21,013 nt of DNA from Pigoraptor vietnamica (lineage: Eukaryota; Opisthokonta; Filasterea), in NCBI GenBank assembly GCA_943704525.1, contig CALSCQ010002741.1, positions 1 to 21,013 of the forward strand. The letters are read 5' to 3'. A model generated the notes under the pieces. That model was not told the origin of the DNA and did no database searches. It worked only from the letters and a program-made list of their open reading frames with translations. The stretch's first letter is position 1. Each line of letters begins with the position of its first letter. Shown piece by piece: positions 1 to 20,786 of the stretch. The position numbers and the translations under genes are program-made.

Positions 1-53
1 TACCGACGATATCCGACGCACTATCCCTCCATGTCAGTGCCGATGTCCGTGTC

Positions 54-1589
54 TCATTGCACCCCATATTTAAACCGCAGTACCGCGGCTCGGCCGCCGC
101 CCACAACCGCCTCGTCCACCACGAACGCGACAAACGCCGCACCAGTGATGCCGCTGCCGTCGACGCCCCCGAGCGCCATCAGGAGGGGGCGGCGCTGCGG
201 TGTGCAGACGGCGATGCCCGGGATGTCGGCGTAGTCGCACGGGACCGCCTTGGCGCTCTGGTTAAAGACTACGAGCGCGTGCGCCTGCGTCGGCTTCGGC
301 AGGGCACGCGACTCCCCCGCGACCCACTCGTTGCGCGCAATGTTGTACACGACCACGTCGCCGAGAATGGCGTCGCTGCTGATGCCGCCCGCGAACAACA
401 GACGGCGCGTTCCGAGCACAGCGCCCGCCGCGCCCCACGCCGGCTGCGGCGCCTTGCCCGCGGGCGAGAGGAGCGTCCATGTGCGCGCCGCTGCAGGATG
501 GGCAGCAAATCGCACGTACGTGAGTGGACTCCACCAAGGGGGGGGGGGGGGGGGGGGGGGACGAGAACGCACACACACACGCAGAACCAAACACAGCACG
601 AGCGCCCGTACCGATGTTGAATGCGTAGAGGCTGCTTGACACGCCGGTCGCGTCCTGTCCGCCGAAGAGGTAGAGTTTGCCGTCGCCGGGCGCAAGCAGC
701 ACGGGGCCGCGGAGGGGCGGCGGGTGCATCACGGACAGCGGACCGTACTGCTGCCACGCGAAGGTCACAAGATTGAGGCTCCTGCACGCGCCGAAGAGTG
801 AGCAGGGCTCTAACGAAAATCATGTGTGCAGTGTGCACATTCCGTTATTTGCAACACCGCAGACACGTACCATAGCTCGGAGACGAGCGTGAGGGAGCTG
901 AGGCCACCGTACACAAACATTTCCGCGCCGTCAAGCGCCGTCGCGTGCGATGTCCGCCCCGCCGGCGTTGCGATCGTCGGCACAGCAGACCACGTGCGGT
1001 TGACTGCAAGGCACACGGTGCGATCACGTGAGCAGTACGCACAGGCGGGATGCATGCTCTGCACGTGATCATTACGCAGGCAGGGTGCATTCACTGCGCG
1101 CACGCACACGCACCTGTGTTGTACGCCCACGTGTCGCCCAGCGCAGTGTGCGACGGCGAAAAGCCGCCATACACAAAAACGCGGCCGCCAAAGTACACCG
1201 ACGTGTGTCCCGTGCGCGCGGGCGGCGACAGCGGCGGCGTAATGCGGCGCCACTCGAGATTGTCTGCACCCCAACCGGCGTCGTCAGTGAAACGGGCGCA
1301 ATGAAGGCACACGGTCGCACGCAGGCGCAGTCGTGCCACAGGCCCACGACTGAGCACCGGAGCAGGCGCACTCACCATAGTCGAGTTCGTACGTTGTTGC
1401 GGTGATGGCGTCCTCCGTTTCGCCGCCAAACATGACGAGGACATTGTCCGGCGTGACGACGACCGTGTGGCCCTTGATGGGCGGCGGGTTGAGACCAAAG
1501 GGACGCAGCGGCGCCCAGTCGCGGGAGCCTGCAAGGAAGGGGAGGGAGTTAGAACAACAATTTTTGCTTTTCCGTACAACACACACCCA

Positions 1590-1652
<63 letters not shown>

Positions 1653-3125
1653 GCACGCACGCACGCACACACACAGACAGGCGGGCTTCGCACCAGTATC
1701 CACGAGATCGAGTATGTTCCCCGACGCGTCCACGCCCGTCGACAGCTGGCGGTTGGCGAGCTGCGACTGTATTGTCTTGATGCGCTGGTCGCGGCTCTGC
1801 AGCCGGATGACCGTGCAGTCCGTGCCTTCCACCGCCTGCGTCGTCGGAATTTGTTCCGCGTACAGCGCGCACGTGCGATTGCTTGAGCAGGGGGAGAGCA
1901 GGAGGCCGTCCACCGACACGTCGATGAGCTTCGTCCCGCCGTTGAAAGCGCCCGAAAACTTGTCCTTCAGCGAGAGATATGCGGCGACGTCCGTGCGCTT
2001 CTCGGACGATGTGATGAGCATCTGCGTGCGTGGGTCGCTCGAGTTGCGAAATGACGTCAGGCGGAAGTCGCTGTCGACGCCAATGACGTACGCCCCGCGG
2101 CCTGCTGCGTACAGCGCGCTTGGTTCGCTCACACCACCGGCGGCCGCAAAGAACACGTCGGCGCCCTGGTCCAGTTGCGCTGGAGCGACGAAATGACATC
2201 AGGTGTCAGCGCGTGTGAAAGACCGGGTACTGCAACGCCAACGCCCAGTATGACGACGTGGACAGTGACGCACGAAGGAGGCAGACCCTACCTTTGGTGG
2301 CGGCAAGCGCGACAGTCGTGTCTGCGAACGTCGGAATGTACGTTCCGAGGACGTTGCAGAAGGGACACACAAACAGTGCGCCGCGAAGAAAGCCGTTGCG
2401 GAACTTGCGCAGGGACGCAAAGGGGATGCCTGCGATCACGCCCACAGTGCGCGACTGCGTGAAGAGCCCCGCAACGAACCCCGCCATGAAGCCCCCCTGG
2501 TCTTCCGCAAAAACAATGCCCTGCACGTTCGGAAGCGGCGTCGAGGGCTGCGTGTCGACGATCGAGTACGTCATGGTCGTGTAATTGTGCGCCGCGGCGA
2601 CGATTGCGTCCAGCCACTCGAAGCCGATCCCGAAAATGTGGGCGTAGTTGGCCGCTATTGCGTTGCGTGGAAGGAAAGGCGGCGAAATCAGACGATAAAC
2701 ACAGACACGACGCGAGCCACCGCGCACAAGTAGAATGATGGCGCTGTGCTTGCAGTGTCACCCACGGACAGAGTACTTGCTGACGGCGGTGGGATCCCCG
2801 GGGCTCTCCACGTGGAACACGCAGCTGTGCATGGCGCTGCTGAACACCTCAAGCACGGCCCGCTCGCACCCGTCCTTCACGCGCGAGAAGAAGGCATTCG
2901 ACGAGCCATCTGGCGACGGGCAAGTGTCAGCATCAGACCATGCGTAATGTAGCGATTACGGAGCAACCCAGACAACATACCAGCCGCAACGACTGGCGAC
3001 GAAATGAGGAGAGCAATCTCCTTTCCTTCCACCAACGGCGCCGCAACCAATACGCACGCGAATATGCACACGAGCGTGCGAGTGCGTGCTTTCGCGGCGC
3101 GTACTGCCGCACCGACGCACGCCAT
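54..3125 (-). CDS. Secreted Bmp/PnrA-like binding protein fused to a kelch propeller
   Basis: Nine exons: 3125-2981, 2909-2766, 2654-2292, 2179-1694, 1528-1376, 1263-1114, 1003-871, 781-612 and 490-54, giving 726 residues. Residues 1-34 look like a signal peptide with a basic start (KARTRT) and a hydrophobic core (LVCIFACVLVAAPL). Residues 35 to about 379 match the Bmp family of periplasmic substrate-binding proteins (PnrA, nucleoside binding). Landmarks are ALLISSPVVAADGSSN, HIFGIGFEWLDAI, GFMAGFVAGL, VGVIAG, FRNGFLRG, GADVFFAAAG and YVIGVDSD. From about residue 380 six kelch motifs follow, each with a Gly-Gly pair (VMFGG, FVYGG, FVYGG, YLFGG, LLFAGG, LMALGG), which suggests a six-bladed propeller. 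No membrane anchor is seen after the propeller. It probably binds a small ligand outside the cell or in the secretory lumen; the ligand is unknown. The stop lies only 53 bases from the window edge, so a further 3' exon cannot be fully excluded. Confidence 0.85.
538..560. repeat. 23-base G run in intron 8 of the Bmp-kelch gene
   Basis: An unbroken G tract on the plus strand, C on the sense strand of the gene, sits in the intron 491-611 beside a short CA tract. Its length may be unreliable because such runs slip in sequencing. Confidence 0.9.
1591..1676. repeat. (AC)n microsatellite with (ACGC)n end, in intron 4 of the Bmp-kelch gene
   Basis: Pure AC runs from 1591 to 1648 and then changes to ACGC and AC units up to 1676. 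It lies in intron 1529-1693. On the sense strand of the host gene it reads (TG)n. Confidence 0.95.
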
Positions 3126-3523
3126 GATTCAAAATTGCACACGGAGTGTCCTATTCGGCGCGGCAGCCAGTAGCAGCAGAGAGAGGGTGCATGTGTGTGC
3201 GCGTGCATGCAGCGCGGCACCTTAGGGCTGTGAGTGCGGTGGCTGGCGAGCGCGTTTTTTTGAATATAGAGCGCTGCGTCGCACGATTGGCGCCAGACAT
3301 GGCAACCGGGCGCCGTCGCTAGGCAGAAGCTATGACCGTATGTGGTAAAAGACGAATTTAATTGCCTAATAAGGAATTATATATGTCCATATTTAGATAC
3401 AACAAGTTTGTTTTATCCTATAATAGAAAAGGAGATCTGTCTGGACTCACTGGAACACAACAGGCGTGCCCCGAACGCGCACCATGCTTGCCAATGCAGT
3501 GTATTTGCATAATACCGTAACGT
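3126..3523. promoter_or_regulatory. Intergenic region: 3' flank of the Cys-repeat gene and promoter of the Bmp-kelch gene
   Basis: No gene is seen in these 398 bases. Both flanking genes run on the minus strand, so the stretch must hold the 3' end of one and the promoter of the other. An AT-rich island at about 3340-3430 stands out from the GC-rich surroundings and contains TATA-like runs (ATTATATAT near 3376, CCTATAAT at 3417-3424). An ATTGG (inverted CCAAT) lies near 3285. Similar AT-rich islands lie 150-300 bases upstream of the genes at 8404 and 12499, so this is probably an open promoter. No AATAAA is visible after the stop of the upstream gene. Confidence 0.45.
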
Positions 3524-6500
3524 TCAGTGCATAAACTGCAGCGCACTGCGGTCATCGCGGGCGCAGACAAAGAAGTCTTCCTGGTCCTCCGCCACTCCCT
3601 CGATGGTATCAAACTCGTCGGAGCCGGCACGCAGCGGCGACATGGGCTCCGCCGAGTCATCGCGGGCCGGAGTGTCGTTGACGAGCTGCAGGAAGCTGTC
3701 AAGAAGAGACGGGCGCCGCTTGATCGACAGCTCGCGCCGCAAAAGCGGCTTCTCGGGATCTGACGGGCGCGGACTCACTGACAAAGGTGCTTCATGATCC
3801 GCATCGTGTGCGTGCACGGAGAGCTCTGCGGCAGAGTCGTCCTGAATCGAGCGAGCACGCACGAGCATCGCGGACACGGACGCCATGCCTCCACTCGCGA
3901 CCACTGCGACCGAGGCACCGGTCGCGACGTATGCGGGACTCGCGGGCGATATGCCGCCAGGGGTGTCGTCGCCGAGCGTTCGGAGAGAGCCCGGGCTGCC
4001 CGTGACGCTCTCCTGCGAGCCCAGCGAGGTGTAGCTGTTGGACCGCGCCGGCTTCGAGGGCGTGAAAATGTTGCCAATGGCGCTGACAATGCTGCTGCGG
4101 CGACGGGGCGAGTCGTCGGGAAGGTCGCACGAGTCGTCGCCGCAGACAAAGTAAGCGAGCGTTCGCCCGCCGCCGAACGACGCGATGCGCTCGTCCAGCT
4201 GCCGCCCCGCCGCCGTCATGATCAGCACCGAGGGAAAGAGGCGCGAAAACGACGTGCCAAAGAGGAGGTGCAGCACGTCCCAGAGCAGAAACACGCCTGC
4301 CACGACGGCGAGCACCACGGACGTCGCCACGAGCACCTCCCCCGCGACCGCAAAGCCCATCGACAGAGCAATCTGCGACGACTCAACAAGCGCCAGCTGG
4401 ATGCCGACCGTCGCCGCCTGCGAGACAAGCGAGTCCGCCGTGAACTTGCCGCTCGTGTCTACCGACTCACTGGTTGTGGACAGGTCACCCGTTGCCATGC
4501 CCACGGCGTCGTCCACGAGCGACGAGCGGCGCGCACGGGGCATGGGGGGCGCCTCTCCCCGCCCGGCAGACCACGTGAGCGCCCGCCACACAGCTTCACG
4601 GAAGGCCTCACTGCACCGCGACGACGATGACCCCTCGCGAGCGGGCGACGACTGCTTGCTGTCGCCCTCGCCCGCCTCGCCGCCGTCCGAGAGTTTCTGC
4701 GCTCACACGAAATCTTCAGCATGCGCACACGGCAAAAACGGAGTGTGCCGGTGGTTCAGCAAGACAGCCACGCACCTTTGCCACCTCGACCCATCGGTTC
4801 ATGCGGCCAAAGCGCTCCATGATTTCGGCCTCGAGCTCCTGCACGCGCGCGTCCGACGCATTCAGACACCTGCAAACAGAGGACAAAGGATTGCCATGTG
4901 AGATGACTGCGGCTGCCGCTGCAAGGGATCCGGAGAGCGGCGCCAATTCACTCACCGCCGCATCGACTCCTTGTGGCGCAGCTCGAGCTTCCTGCAGGCC
5001 GTGTTGAAGACGGTGCGGCACACGCCCGTGAGGGTTTCGTCCCAGTTCGCATTGAACGTCTGGTAGAACTCGTTGCTCCTCGCCTGTCGACGGGGCGGTC
5101 AGAAGAGCGCAGGAGAATGGCGGAAATAATGCACCAACCACGCTCTGGCGGACGACAACTGCAATAGGACCAAAAAAAAAAAAAAAAAGAAAAAAAAAAA
5201 AAGTGCGTGCGAGAGCGCATCAGGGCAGACTGCTACTGCGATGCGATGTACCTGGATCCCCGAGAAGTCCGCGCCGATGATGTGCCACGCCTCCTTGTGC
5301 GCAAGGCTGTCGACGGCATCCGCAGTCAAGAGCTCCGCCATGTCCTCAAGCCCCGGCGAGCCCACAAGCCTGTGCGGGACGCGGATCAGGGGGATTGAAG
5401 GCGCACATGGTTCGACATGCACACACGCGTTCACACGCACGCACGCACACATACACGGACATGACACGCAAAATGCACGCACGCCTACACCTCACAACAC
5501 ACACACACACTCTATCTTAAATCGCTGAAAACGTACCTGTACGAGTGCACAAAGAGATTGAAGTCAAGAAGGGAGGCGACACGCGCGCGCTCCGTGCTGG
5601 ACATCGACACGAGCACCATGAACGGGCGGATCATGCCTGCCTCAAACGCGCGGCGTTTTTCCTCCGTCTGCAGCCGCAGCACCCGCTCGAGGCGCGCGAA
5701 TGAAGGCGGGTCGACGGCAGACTGCGCGCTAATTTCCACGCGGCTGCGGCAGAGCATAAAGTAGTGCAGCGTGTCCCACGGAATGCCCTCGCTGCACATG
5801 GCGCAGCGCCAGTCGGCGGGTGCCATGCCGGGAGAGCTCCTGTCCGACGCAAAGCAACGGGCGGTCGTCAGCACTGCGACACGAATGCAAGTGGCAGGGC
5901 GGTCGTAACAATTTCAAGAACGGTCGTAACAATTCAAAAGCGGTCGTCAGCACTGGGACACATATGTAAGTGGAAGGGCGCTCATAAGGCAAAGGAAGTG
6001 CACGTTCAAATGTCTCTGTGCACAGGCGCCTTTGCGCAAACACGCGCCAACGCACCGCGCCATGCCCACGTCGCACGACCGGCACTGCGTGGTGCGGCAG
6101 TGGCACTCCAGGCACTTGTACACGTGGCGCGTCACCGAATTGTGCTGCTGAAGCACGTGCGTCCCCATTTCAAGGCACCACGAGCACCGCCGCTCCGGGA
6201 GATTCATCGTCGCCTCCGGTATCCCCACGCAACGCGAACACCGCTCGTCGTCGTACGAGCCGTGCCCGCGCGCAAACGACGGACACTTGCGGCACGGCAA
6301 CTGCGGCGGCGAACCCAATAAGAACCAGTTTGGCCCTCGTGCGACGCAGCGATGAGCAAGCAAATACCCACCGTACGCCGGTTGCAGTTGAGGCAGCGGT
6401 AAATGTCGCGCACGCGAATTACCCCAAAGCCCTGCGAGAGGCCAAACAGCGGTCAACAGGGGTGTGCAGTGGATTGCCGCCGACAATCACCACTCCAACC

Positions 6501-10989: not shown

Positions 10990-11886
10990 ACGCAAGCAGC
11001 CGTCAGAAATTAGAGTGCCCACCTCGCAGCCGGCAAGCTCCGTGAGGGTGCCATCGGCGTCGTGGTCGTAATGCAGCGAGCCGTCGTTCACCATGGCCGA
11101 AATGTACGGGTGGCCGTGCTGTAATGTCCGCACGCACGCTGTGAGCAGTGGCACAAGTCGCGAGCGAGACACATCGCACACTCACGTTGTGGTGCCCGTT
11201 GTGGTTGCTGTACGTGTCAAAGAACACGCCAAGGCCCGTGAAGTAGTCCTTCGAGCCAAACACAGGCCCTGTGCAGCGCATGTGGTCAGCGACCAGCCAA
11301 ATTCACAGCAGCGCCCTCAAGCATAAAACAGCGCAGTCATTATAAACACACACGACACGCGCAACTTACCGAGCTCCGTGCGGTCCTTCGTGTACCAGAA
11401 CGCCCAGCCGTCGCCGAACAGGCGCTTGCCCTGGCCCCACACCTTGAAGTCGATCGTCAGCTCCCAGGCCGCCATGTGGTTCGGCTGCGTGGTGTAAAGT
11501 GTACAGTCAGTCAGCATTAACGCACGCGCACTCGCACTCACGCGCATAAGCGCACGCACAGACACATGCACTCGCTAACAGCCGCGCTTTTACACGTTTC
11601 ACGCACACACGCACATATACATTCACGTACAGATGAACACCCATGCACTCACGAGTTTTGCCCAGAGGTAGCCCTGCTTGCTCTGGCGGTCGGGCGTGAG
11701 GCGCACATAGTCGTCGGCGACAACGGTGCTGCCACCAAAGTCCCAGTACGGGATGTCGAGGCCCGCCCCAATGTACGGCTTGTGCAGCGAGAACGAGCGC
11801 TGCACCGCCTGCGCGGCACCGGGGACGGCGAGCACGGCGGCGGCGACAACCGCGCACACGAGCGCAATGCGCAGTGCGCCGGACAT
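10175..11886 (-). CDS. LMAN2: VIP36/LMAN2-type L-type lectin cargo receptor
   Basis: Eight exons: 11886-11653, 11484-11370, 11268-11186, 11118-11023, 10870-10805, 10736-10622, 10522-10421 and 10332-10175, giving 322 residues (human VIP36 has 356). This is a type I membrane lectin that binds high-mannose glycans on cargo between ER and Golgi. A signal peptide (residues 1 to about 26) is followed by the L-type lectin fold: FSLHKPYIG, AWELTIDFKVWGQG, GDGWAFWYTKDR, GVFFDTYSNHNG, PYISAMVNDGSLHYDHDADG, ELAGCE, NEWRQCF, GVDIPTGYYFG and DNHDIIS. The paired cysteines of the family are kept. A short stalk, one membrane segment (about 286-309) and the tail KLRERANKRFY follow; the KRFY end is identical to that of VIP36. 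The residue matching VIP36 Asp261 is Gln (ATGQVADNHD). Confidence 0.95.
10929..10988. repeat. (AC)n microsatellite in intron 4 of the lectin gene
   Basis: Sixty bases of pure AC follow a shorter ACGC-rich run starting near 10905. The tract lies in intron 10871-11022 and reads (GT)n on the sense strand. Confidence 0.95.
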
Positions 11887-12076
11887 TCTCACTCGCACAC
11901 GACCGTGGACGACTGAAACGTGCAACGTTGAACAGCAGCAGTAGTACGGCGCAGCGGCTGCTGCCTTTTGCTGTGTGTGCGTTGCGTGGGCAGTGGCCAC
12001 GTAGACTGAAGCGAGGAATGTGTGTGGTTGCGACAGGGGGAGGAGTCGCTGTCCGGCAAGGGCGAGTGCGTGGAGG

Positions 12077-12101
12077 GTGTGTGTGTGTGTGTGTGTGTGT
12101 G
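12077..12101. repeat. (GT)n tract upstream of the lectin gene
   Basis: A 25-base GT tract about 190 bases upstream of the lectin ATG, in the divergent promoter region. It is the only sizeable dinucleotide tract in the window that is not inside an intron. Confidence 0.9.
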
Positions 12102-12331
12102 CACGCATGTCGTACACCTGACAGCTGGGGTCATGTGGACGCACCCTCGCAGGGAATGTGAGCGCGACATGCGCAATGGTGCTATGGGCCCGCATATCAT
12201 GACGAGCCTATAATGAGTTTGGCGCAATCGTGTTCTTTAATATGCTAACTCTCACTATTAAAAATTTGCTACACATATAACAATTTGATTTTGATTCCTT
12301 CAAGCCAAATAATGTATTGAAGTCGTTATTT

Positions 12332-12498: not shown

Positions 12499-13059
12499 AT
12501 GGCGGCCGTGGCCGACGCGCCCCTCGAGACGACCTCGGGGCGGGTGCGTGTGCCGCCGATGCTGGTTTGTGTGGTGCCCTGCTTACTTACTCAATGCCAC
12601 GTGCAGTTCCGCTTGACCGACGTTGCCACGGAAGATGTGGCCAATGACATACTGAAGAAGGCTGGGCCGCTGGAATTGCTCGCCTTTTCCAAGTGGGTGG
12701 GCGGCGAATTGGTGTGCGTGGTTGCGCTGCGACTCACGTGTGGCTCCGTCCCAGGCTTGCGGACCTTGTGAAGAAGGGCGTGCTGAAGAAGGACCAGGAC
12801 AATGACAAGGACGTCTCGTTCGTCTTCAGCAACAGTCCCGCGGACCTGTTTGATGCGGAGATCGACGAGTTCTACAGCTACGCCGAGAACGCCGAGTTCC
12901 TCGCGGGGCATGCGGACTTCCGCAGCGAGTTTGGGCGCGGTGGGTGAATTTGCGTGCTTGTCGAGGATGTAGTTGTTGGTTTATTCTTGTACCAAGTACT
13001 AATACGTTGTGTGTGTGTGTATGTGCGTGTGTGTGTGTGTGTGTGCGTGTGTGTTTGTG

Positions 13060-13109
<50 letters not shown>

Positions 13110-15837
13110 GTGTTTTGTGCATATTTATGTGTGCTTCGCCGAATAGACTGGAAAAGCGCGTCCCAATCCGATCGCCACGCGTTCATCGACACGTGCCTCG
13201 ATGCCGTGGAGAGTGCGACACCGGCGCGGAGGCATAGGAAACTGCGCGCCCTGTGCTACGTGGCGCAGGGCGTGTTTATGGAAGCAGCCACCCGCCAGGA
13301 ACAGATCGACCACTGGCGCGCGAACTGCAGCGCCATCTACGCGCGCGGTGGGCTCGACGTGCTCGGGCGTGCGGCCATAGCGGAGATTGGGCGGGTGCGG
13401 GACGAGTGCGCGGCGCAGTTGGCTGCGGCACAGGAGGAGTTTGAACGGGAGAAGGAGAAGGAGAAGGACCAGGCCGCGGGAAGGCGACGCCCGTCCATGA
13501 CGAAGAAGGACTCGCGCACACACCCTTCCGTGAAGGCGCCGACCATGGCGTCCAATGCGCCCCTCCGCACGCTGCTCAATCTGCTGCACGGCGTTGTCCA
13601 CGCCGCGTCGATCGTCGCCCCGGAGGACCTCGCCGCCGACCTCGCCAAGCCCATCGCGGGCACGGCGACCGAACCCGTGCTGCTCGGTGCCGCGCTCTTT
13701 GAGGCCGTCGCCGGCTTCGACGTGGCACAGGCGCTTCCCGTCCGAAAGCTCGTGCTGTTGTTCCAGCGCTGCGTCACGGCGATGCTCGGCGGGGACGACG
13801 GCCGGGCGGAGCGGCGGGCGCAGTTGCAGCGCGAGGCTGGCCTGCCCGAATCGCGGCCGCACGTGCCGAAGGCATCGCGCGAGGCACTAGATGGCTTTGC
13901 GGCGCACACAAGCGAGCGGTTCTACGGATACTTTGGCCCGCAGGATGCCGCGTCCAAGCTGCGCGCCGCGGCCGCCGCTGCAGTGTTTGCGGGCGTGGCA
14001 CCCCCGCCGCTGGCGCCGCTGCCCCCGCCAATTTCGGAGGGCCTAGCCGTGATGCAGGAGCACCTGCAGCTGACGCTGGCGGACCACCAGCTCGCGCAAG
14101 AGGGGTGTGCGTACGCAAAGAACCGGCTGCTGTCTGCGCGGTCGCAGGCGTCGCTCGAGCCGCGGGAGCGGAGGGGCGCCGACCCCGAGCCCCACCCGGC
14201 CGAGGCGCTGTACGCCGCCCTCCTGCCCCGCCTCCCGCGCGGCGTGATTGTCGTGCTCAAGACGGTCCTTGCGTGCGCGCCCCCGCCGTCGTCGTCACAG
14301 TTGCACCTCACGTCCGAAGTCGGTGGGAGAATGCGTCAACGAAGGATTGTGAATGTGCTTGTGTGTGGTTCCACTGTCGCTGATGCGACGGCGGCTTTGC
14401 AGACAGCGGCGCCCAGTCGCGGTCGGTTGTGCAGGCGATGGAGTTCAACATCGACATGGCGCGACACCGCGAGATCATCATGCGCACCTGCGTGGAGGTC
14501 CTGCTCTTGCTGTACCGGCACTGGAAAGTGAATCGTATCCGAAGACTGTCTCTGTGGTGTGCGTGCGCATGCGTGTGTGAGCGTGTCGAATGGCGTTGTT
14601 GGCCCCCTTGTCCCTTGGGATTCTCCTTGACCGCCCGCGCAGACGTGCTGCAAGCGGAGTATCTGTCGCAGCTGTTGGTCGACGCCAACGGCATTGTGCT
14701 TCTCCTGAGGATAATCAACACGGACATTCTCGCCTACGTCACTACGAAGAACGAGCTGCCGTTCTACAGGTGCGACGCAGGCGTATATGTCGGTTCTGAG
14801 TGCTTGTCGCCATTCGCTTAATGGCGCATGTCGCGACGTTTTCTTCTGCCGTGTGCTGACGTCACTCTTCCGCAGCTTCATGGGTTGGGCACGCCATGCC
14901 TTTGCGGGGGTTACGGAGCCGCAGGTCGAGGACGAAGGTTCGTCCATGCTTGTCTAACACCGGAGTCGTCGCAGCGAGCGCGTCGTGTTTCTCTTATGCT
15001 CAACTGCTTGTCGCCTTCGCAGAGGCCGGCGAGCAGAAGCCCGCGCCGTACCGCAACATGGGCGCAGTGATTGCGATGCTGCGCCTGCTGCAGAAGGCGA
15101 CGAAGAACAAGGCCGTGCGCATCCAGACGATGGTGCACTTTAAAGCGCCGGTGGGTGGCTGCGATGCCTCCCGCGACTTGTTTTGGCGCTTCGCTGACTG
15201 TTCCCACCGTTCGCAGGCGATTTTGAAGCGGCTTCTTCCTCTTCCCGACGCACAGCTGCAATTGTACGCGTTGAAGCTTGTCAAGAGCCAAATCAAGTTC
15301 CTCGGCCGCAAGTGGCGGCAGGGTGCGTACGGGTGGCACGTGACGCTCTGCCCGTGTGCTGTGTGGGCGCTTGCTCAACTCCCATGTACGCCGGCAGGCA
15401 ACATGAGGGTGCTTTCTGCCATCTATCTTCGCGTGCGCCAGAGCCTCCACGACGATTGGGCGTACGCTGCGGAGACGGATGTGGATGCGAGCGAGATGAA
15501 GGTGCGTTCCATTCTCGGCGTGCTGCGCACGGACAGCTGTTTGCTGACACAGCATTCGGCGCCTCTCCCACAGTTGACCGAGTCTACGCTGCGGGATGGC
15601 ATTGAGCTGTTCAACCGCCGCCACTATGCCGAGGCCGAGCCCGGGGCGCGCAGCAGCGTGACGTTCGTTCCCGCAGGTCTCGACGAGCTCGACGTCGACA
15701 TTTTTGCCGCGTGCGCCGACGAGGCCGCGCAGCTGCCGCGGGACGAAGCGGCCGCGCTCTTTGCTACATTGGGAGGGGAGGCGCTGACGCGCGATGTGGA
15801 CGGCGTTGAAGGGGACTGGTGGCAAGACTACGAGTAA
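12499..15837 (+). CDS. STRIP1: STRIP1/2 (FAM40/Far11) STRIPAK scaffold protein
   Basis: Eleven exons: 12499-12543, 12607-12692, 12755-12939, 13147-14322, 14403-14534, 14643-14769, 14876-14937, 15023-15150, 15217-15322, 15398-15501 and 15574-15837, giving 804 residues (human STRIP1 has 837). STRIP proteins scaffold the PP2A-striatin-GCKIII kinase complex. The N-terminal N1221-like part shows EFYSYAENAEF, ALCYVAQGVFMEA, LRTLLNLLHGVVH and VRKLVLLFQRCVTAMLGG. The C-terminal DUF3402-like part shows ALYAALLPRLPRGVIVVLK, VNHVLQAEYLSQLLV, TDILAYVTTKNELPF, LYALKLVKSQIKFLGRKWR, VLSAIYLRVRQSLHDDWAY and ELFNRRHY, all close to human STRIP1 in order and spacing. A charged, Lys/Glu-rich insert follows EEFERE in exon 4. 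The GTATCC donor of exon 5 is weak but is the one that restores the conserved NHV. Confidence 0.95.
13008..13113. repeat. (TG)n microsatellite in intron 3 of the STRIP gene
   Basis: An interrupted TG tract of about 105 bases in intron 12940-13146. TACTAAT, a perfect-looking branch-point string, lies just before it at about 12997-13003, some 145 bases from the acceptor. Confidence 0.95.
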
Positions 15838-19762: not shown

Positions 19763-20786
19763 ATGAACTTTGCGACGTTTGCGGGCCTGAGCACGGCGCT
19801 TGCTGTTGCGGTGATGGCGCACTCGCTGACGCAGAAGGAGCAGTTCTATCCCGCGGTGGTCCACCTCACGCGGTCGAGTGGCAGCATGATGGTGCGTGAC
19901 GTGGCACGACTGATCCCTTCGTTGTTTTGTCCCTGCGTGCCGGCTCTTTAACGCCCCTTCGCGCAGGTGCTGTACAACATGGGCCTGGTGCTCGTCATTC
20001 TCTTCGGCAAACTCATGCAGCGCATCTTTTTTGGTCAGCTGCGTGCCATTGAGGTCGAGGTGTGTGTTTCGAGTGGGCGCCAAATGTTTGCTTGTAGAAG
20101 TTGTGTGTTTCGTGTGCTGTGCGTGTGTGCTGTGCGTGAGTGCTGTGCGTGCGTGCTGTGTGTCGTGCTGTGCGCCCGTCGAAGTGCTCCTGACGCCCTG
20201 TCCCCAGCACCTCTACGAGCGGTCGTGGTATGCCGTGACGGAGACGTGCCTTGCCATGTCCATCTTCCGCGACGAGTTCAACGCGAATTTTGTGGTTTTC
20301 TTCACCGTCCTCCTCTTCCTCAAGATATTCCACTGGCTCGCCCAAGACCGCGTGGACTTTGTGAGTCGTTTTGTGCGCGCGTTGATTGTTGTGTGTGGCT
20401 GTGTGCTCAACGCAGTCGTGCCGTCGCAGATGGAACAGAGCCCCGGCGTGTCGTGGGTTTTTTACACGCGCATAACGAGCATCGTCACGCTGCTTGCGCT
20501 GCTTGACGGCGCGTTCATCTACCACGCCGTCATGCACTCGATCGCCAAGGGGCCTTCCATGCAGCTGCTCTTTGGCTTTGAGGTGCGTGCAGGGTCTCGC
20601 CACTGGCAGCGCTGCCGTGCCTTGTGGTCGTTTCTTACGCTCGTGTCCCTCGGCCGCAGTTTATTGTGCTAGCGACATTGCTAGTGACGACGGTGGTCAA
20701 GTTTGTGCTGCACACCATCGACCTCCAGAGTGAGCACCCGTGGGACAACAAGTCGACCTATGTTTTCTATCTGGAGCTCACGATGG
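19763..20786 (+). CDS. SYVN1: HRD1/synoviolin ER-associated E3 ubiquitin ligase, N-terminal membrane domain (partial)
   Basis: Five exons lie in the window: 19763-19891, 19967-20059, 20208-20360, 20430-20582 and 20660-20786, giving the first 218 residues. HRD1 forms the ER-membrane channel and ligase of ERAD. The match to synoviolin is very close: SLTQKEQFYPAVVHL, LFGKLMQRIFFGQLR, ERSWYAVTETCLAMSIFRD, LKIFHWLAQDRVDFMEQSP, SMQLLFGFEF, and KFVLHTIDLQSEHPWDNK followed by the start of the sixth membrane segment. Five membrane segments are complete. The catalytic RING domain and the tail lie beyond the right edge. The last visible donor, GTGCGT at 20787, opens an intron that runs out of the window. 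Confidence 0.96.
20114..20166. repeat. 13-base tandem repeat in intron 2 of the HRD1 gene
   Basis: Units of GTGCTGTGCGTGN repeat with period 13 about four times inside intron 20060-20207. It is again GT-rich on the sense strand. Confidence 0.8.

Follow-up and report, generated by a model that had tools for sequence, protein, structure and literature searches.

Gene structure at the contig edge

The window, 21,013 nucleotides long, is the complete contig C1143 of a Pigoraptor vietnamica assembly; the assembly searched here comprises 32.5 Mb in 1395 contigs. A gene on the minus strand occupies one edge of the window. It was modelled with nine exons and eight GT-AG introns, which together give a single frame of 726 codons. 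Its features, in window coordinates and in the order of transcription, are the following.

2981..3125, minus strand: exon 1; ATG, signal-like start and first Bmp strand
2766..2909, minus strand: exon 2; Bmp, with pocket residue F55 (codon 2892-2890)
2292..2654, minus strand: exon 3; Bmp core, with D130 (codon 2556-2554), F181 (2403-2401) and F206 (2328-2326)
1694..2179, minus strand: exon 4; second lobe of Bmp, with V252, D253 (2075-2073) and K278 (2000-1998); 486 nt
1842..3023, minus strand: Bmp (PnrA-like) domain, residues about 35-330, split by introns; assigned by Pfam PF02608 and by PDB relatives
1376..1528, minus strand: exon 5; kelch motif 1 and the opening W strand
1114..1263, minus strand: exon 6; kelch motif 2
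871..1003, minus strand: exon 7; kelch motif 3
612..781, minus strand: exon 8; kelch motif 4
54..490, minus strand: exon 9 as modelled; the genuine part, 94..490, contains kelch motifs 5 and 6 and ends ...VVDEAVVGG
1..93, no strand assigned: inverted copy of C712:10507-10415, 93 of 93 bases identical; covers the last part of an intron and the first part of the 'YRGSEV' kinase exon on C712

The modelled frame of exons 2 to 9 is preferred by a coding-frame model, which was trained on the open frames of the fetched loci, the window among them. Exon 1 is the weakest exon in this model: its modelled frame ranks first of three, yet has a score of −5.9. The end of exon 1 (KEIALLISS) aligns with the first strand of the paralogues. 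The signal-like start is a hydropathy peak at residues 17-35 and is named on hydropathy only.

In its first run, a simple gene finder returned exons 2 to 9 exactly, but fused them to upstream genes in a model of 2709 codons. A second run, with different penalties, produced a variant of 702 residues, in which exon 1 is split (3125-3113 and 2992-2981), with the loss of most of the signal-like start, and exons 4 and 8 are extended at their 3' ends to 1679 and 579, respectively; the remaining exons are the same.

Elsewhere in the window, the plus-strand region 12948-15834 contains matches to N1221 and DUF3402, a pair of domains known from STRIP proteins. A legume-like lectin match is located at 11623-12207 on the minus strand, and a synoviolin/HRD1-like match at 19914-20669 on the plus strand.

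Fusion of a Bmp domain to a kelch propeller

The Pfam Bmp profile PF02608 matches residues 99-301 of the predicted protein with an E-value of 1.9e-26 (93.2 bits, against a curated cut-off of 24.1). Further along the chain, residues 372-548 match kelch with an E-value of 6e-50, and the kelch profiles above cut-off are PF24681 (170 bits) and Kelch_1, 2, 3, 4 and 6. Kelch propellers consist of five to seven kelch repeats with a GG motif; here, six motifs were placed at residues 414, 463, 513, 565, 616 and 689, chosen among eight GG pairs.

The fusion of the two parts is real. The paralogue on contig C507 has one open frame, 740 codons long, that aligns to the window protein on both sides of the boundary between Bmp and kelch without a stop codon (query positions 180-663 of 692, 36% identity). 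Because C507 carries both domains in one uninterrupted frame, the fusion is independent of the splice model, and the possibility, raised in the preliminary description, of Bmp exons and kelch exons belonging to separate mRNAs is answered in favour of the fusion. The exon preceding the boundary is 486 nt long in the window gene, in C1349 and in the plus-strand gene of C712 (hereafter C712 plus), and the genuine part of exon 9 is homologous to C712 plus 3274-3669. The window gene thus shares its exon structure and the order of Bmp and kelch with the Bmp-kelch receptor family of this genome. A single spliced frame had been described as comprising a signal peptide, a Bmp domain and six kelch motifs; the Bmp domain, the kelch motifs and the frame stand, the start is signal-like by hydropathy and the 3' end is in doubt, as set out below.

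Bmp genes of this genome

The search yielded at least 19 Bmp genes on at least 18 contigs; C1193 has two of the genes. Twelve of the 19 are of the Bmp-kelch type: C1143 (the window), C1349, C507, C126, C422, C1095, C1200, C1015, C542, C446, C712 plus and C54. Eleven of these were counted by Pfam kelch matches beside Bmp, and C54, which has no Pfam kelch match, by eye from its model. With 12 such loci, the earlier suggestion of a rare fusion does not hold within this genome. Five genes are of a Bmp-EGF type (C555, C1193 twice, C325 and C1008), four of them scanned with Pfam and the second C1193 gene assigned by eye. In the last two, C533 and C619, the sequence breaks off close to a contig end, ahead of any next domain. 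No relatives were found in viral contigs, where eight stretches fitted a pattern and none was confirmed.

Three of the 12 Bmp-kelch loci, namely the window, C126 and C54, are cut at contig edges before the membrane part. The other nine, which have enough sequence, all contain hydrophobic segments after the kelch part, as judged by a simple hydropathy scan that flags some stretches elsewhere too. In seven of these nine, a Pfam kinase follows (C1349, C422, C1095, C1015, C446, C542 and C712 plus), recovered in part for C542 and C1015. The C1200 sequence runs into N after its hydrophobic segment. C507 shows several such segments and neither a kinase match nor a 7TM/GPCR Pfam match; that part of the protein matches no Pfam profile. 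The C446 kinase has the motif HRDLAARN, and its matches are receptor tyrosine kinases (FGFR4, E-value 4e-59, ranking below an entry named EGFR with 1e-86); over 346 columns, it shares 68% identity with the kinase of C1015.

Several further genes were observed in the fetched loci. The minus strand of C188:36000-43581 (L029) encodes a kelch-TM-kinase-like-cyclase gene, the Bmp end of which, if any, lies off the contig; for its kinase-cyclase part, a match to natriuretic peptide receptor 1 was obtained (E-value 3e-96). C325 (L018) and C1008 (L023) encode Bmp-EGF-TM-kinase-like-cyclase receptors. One open frame at L028:6045-7571 (C791) joins a T-box DNA-binding domain (E-value 1.6e-58) to a response-regulator receiver domain (E-value 1.1e-9), an odd combination of an animal-type and a bacterial-type transcription factor. 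C1015 (L019 1-200) and C868 (L041 1-200) both start with a stretch of actin C-terminus, 99.5% identical over 200 bases; therefore, actin repeats may break the assembly.

The putative nucleoside pocket

The PDB relatives of the window Bmp domain are 7x0r, 6yab, 2fqw, 6shu and 9q1u, and nucleoside binders are among them (cf. PMC7093131, PMC13325309). In PMC13325309, the conserved pocket residues of B. burgdorferi BmpA are given as Phe27, Phe151, Phe176, Val224, Asp225 and Lys242, and Asp98, together with Lys242 and Asp225, is described as positioned to engage the ribose; after replacement of Phe27 or Phe176 by alanine, thymidine binding was no longer detectable. In our alignment, to which the BmpA numbering was transferred by motif and spacing, all seven residues are kept in the window protein, with F55, D130, F181, F206, V252, D253 and K278 corresponding to BmpA Phe27, Asp98, Phe151, Phe176, Val224, Asp225 and Lys242, respectively. 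This conservation suggests a putative nucleoside-type pocket, making the previously proposed function of ligand sensor a likely one.

The pocket alignment covers nine of the 12 kelch-type loci (all except C422, C446 and C1200), and the full set is present in seven of these nine rows, the window included. In C712 plus, Ile replaces Val and the contig does not reach the first site; in C507, two sites are changed. Two EGF-type Bmp rows retain the first Phe only, and neither keeps an equivalent of D130, D253 or K278. As these two rows lack the pocket set, Bmp domains of this genome can change ligand. The cleft of the window protein might then bind another small molecule or a peptide instead of nucleosides, with the kelch propeller as the main binding face. 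This reading competes with the ligand part of our interpretation only, and the seven of seven residues kept in the window, together with the full set in most aligned kelch-type rows, make it the less likely one.

A foreign 3' end

The apparent TGA stop codon of the modelled gene is located at 54-56, and the last 13 codons (residues 714-726) all fall inside the inverted stretch of 93 bases. When window bases 1-700 were compared with the genome at the DNA level, three matches were obtained: the window itself, C712:10407-10507 in reverse orientation (97% over window bases 1-101) and the C712-plus paralogue (71%). The 93-base match has an alignment score of 187, compared to at most 26 in 50 shuffles, and is above chance. 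Twenty contig ends were also compared with 224 kb of loci (overlaps counted), and the link between the window and C712 was the sole inverted one; the same search returned one pair of ends sharing a direct stretch (counted both ways) and one 94-base fragment matching itself.

Given the 93 of 93 identical bases in inverted orientation, we attribute residues 714-726 and the TGA to an inverted join at the edge of the contig. An exact inverted copy in such a position is a pattern typical of an assembly or library chimera. The join may be a chimera of this kind or a real inversion. With its stop codon inside a foreign stretch, and with hydrophobic segments after the kelch part in every readable Bmp-kelch paralogue, the reading of the protein as soluble and secreted, given in the preliminary description, is not supported. 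A contig-edge join can produce a false 'secreted' protein.

A candidate for the missing half

The inverted stretch derives from an orphan kinase gene, located on the minus strand at the right end of C712. This gene encodes a TM helix and a TKL-type kinase, for which the best PDB match is CTR1. No ectodomain was seen in the 131 bases between the TM match and the contig end. The gene finder opens the orphan with a tiny, doubtful first exon, and the arrangement suggests that the gene enters from an intron. Its strand and its edge are as expected if C712 precedes C1143.

In trees, the ectodomain of the window gene is sister to that of C712 plus, its closest relative, with support of 100/100 and 51% identity over 623 columns. 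The kinase of the orphan and that of C712 plus form a sister pair as well, with support of 99/98 and 43% identity, in a tree of nine rows, two of which are flagged as long branches. We infer that this orphan transmembrane-kinase gene of C712 is the half that the window gene lacks. The orphan is best matched by the window, but other candidates exist, as contig edges also cut off the ectodomains of C126 and C54.

The splice sites were inspected on both sides of the proposed join. The genuine sequence of exon 9 stops at base 94 and does not show the true donor. The most plausible visible donor is GTGGGC at 104, with a score of 1.2 (20th-30th percentile of predicted donors) and phase 0. Before the TM exon of C712, two acceptors are free of stops, one in phase 1 (10994) and one in phase 2 (10975), each with a low score; the phase-0 acceptors run through stops. 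The corresponding introns of the paralogues C712 plus and C542 are in phase 1 in the models. Splicing from the donor at 104 to C712 was dropped for want of a stop-free acceptor of matching phase; a donor at 142 (phase 1, score 0.67) was also dropped, as its use would cost the protein its conserved last kelch strand. With the visible splice phases in disagreement, either the join is wrong or the exon truly ends beyond the contig.

Taken together, we consider it likely that the window gene encodes the ectodomain of a single-pass, nucleoside-sensing Bmp-kelch receptor kinase that is cut at the contig edge, with the orphan kinase of C712 as its other half. Alternatively, a truncated receptor gene, for instance one left by a real inversion, might encode a genuine soluble, secreted Bmp-kelch protein acting as a scavenger, a decoy or a soluble sensor; the sequenced frame does close with a TGA, there is no membrane helix past the kelch part and the visible donor is out of phase with the stop-free C712 acceptors. 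Against these points, the 93 bases that bear the stop form an exact, chimera-like inverted copy at a contig edge, and hydrophobic segments follow the kelch part in nine of nine readable paralogues, so we find a soluble product improbable. Still less probable is a Bmp-kelch receptor with a different missing half, made of several membrane segments as in C507 or of a kinase and a cyclase as in C188: such outputs exist in the family (C188 having the order kelch-TM-kinase-cyclase) and the splice phases lend the C712 join no support, but the window's closest relative is a TM-kinase receptor, to the kinase of which the orphan kinase is sister.

If the window gene does encode the ectodomain of a receptor kinase, a nucleoside or similar small molecule would enter the Bmp cleft, which would close as a Venus flytrap. 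The kelch propeller, situated between the flytrap and the membrane, might relay this event by pairing receptors or by retaining a partner protein; the kinase in the cytoplasm would then be turned on. A grazing protist could thereby sense nucleosides of its prey or neighbours.

Comparison with known receptors and binding proteins

The window protein resembles the bacterial Bmp/PnrA lipoproteins (PnrA/TmpC, 2fqw; BmpA, 9q1u; BmpD, 6shu; S. pneumoniae PnrA, 6yab) in its PF02608 domain, its seven pocket residues and its sequence homology. It differs in that its gene is eukaryotic, spliced and fused to a kelch propeller. There is no lipobox cysteine after its signal-like start, with no Cys between residues 25 and 62.

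Among eukaryotic receptors, the amoebozoan Grl (class C-like) GPCRs have an N-terminal BMP domain as receptor ectodomain, according to the available part of PMC10445921. They share with the window protein, if it is indeed membrane-bound, the use of Bmp as the outer domain of a membrane receptor in a eukaryote. In contrast, the Grl proteins are GPCRs, with kelch unmentioned in that part of the article. No seven-helix domain is seen in the window sequence as far as the contig edge. The Venus kinase receptors of invertebrates, as far as the accessible accounts go, combine a flytrap ectodomain with a single TM segment and a kinase, the latter two being probable for the window protein. Their flytrap resembles the ligand domain of class C GPCRs and kelch is not mentioned in those accounts, whereas the flytrap of the window protein is of the Bmp type. 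Their kinase is a tyrosine kinase, whereas that of the window gene, if the link to the C712 orphan is correct, is of TKL type; the C446 kinase is of tyrosine-kinase type.

The likeness to natriuretic peptide receptor 1 (GC-A) concerns the kinase-like and cyclase part of C188, of which the ectodomain seen is kelch, and not the window gene. In Acanthamoeba, receptor nucleotidyl cyclases form a large protist family with an ectodomain, a single TM segment and kinase and cyclase domains, as given in the accessible part of PMC4053784. Their receptor layout is similar to the one proposed here, but the words 'Bmp' and 'kelch' are absent from the main text of that article as available; both are also absent from PMC4758236. 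Among the matches listed, no description of a Bmp-kelch receptor appears in open-access titles or the starts of abstracts. A known sensor fold is combined here with known outputs, and the combination is absent from those open-access matches.

Implications

The bacterial-type head of Bmp and kelch may be shared by TKL kinases, tyrosine kinases (C446, C1015), the kinase/cyclase half of C188 and the multi-helix part of C507, which would then constitute a modular receptor superfamily. Nucleoside receptors would then number about a dozen, the window gene among them, and there would be receptor tyrosine kinases that sense nucleosides. We put this forward tentatively, at slightly less than even confidence. 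Most protist receptor kinases have, to our knowledge, no known ligand; nucleosides would provide a concrete, testable class of ligands for them. If the proposal is true, a bacterial nutrient-binding domain would have become the sensing part of an entire family of eukaryotic receptors, in which the outputs (TKL kinase, tyrosine kinase, cyclase or multi-helix part) have been swapped.
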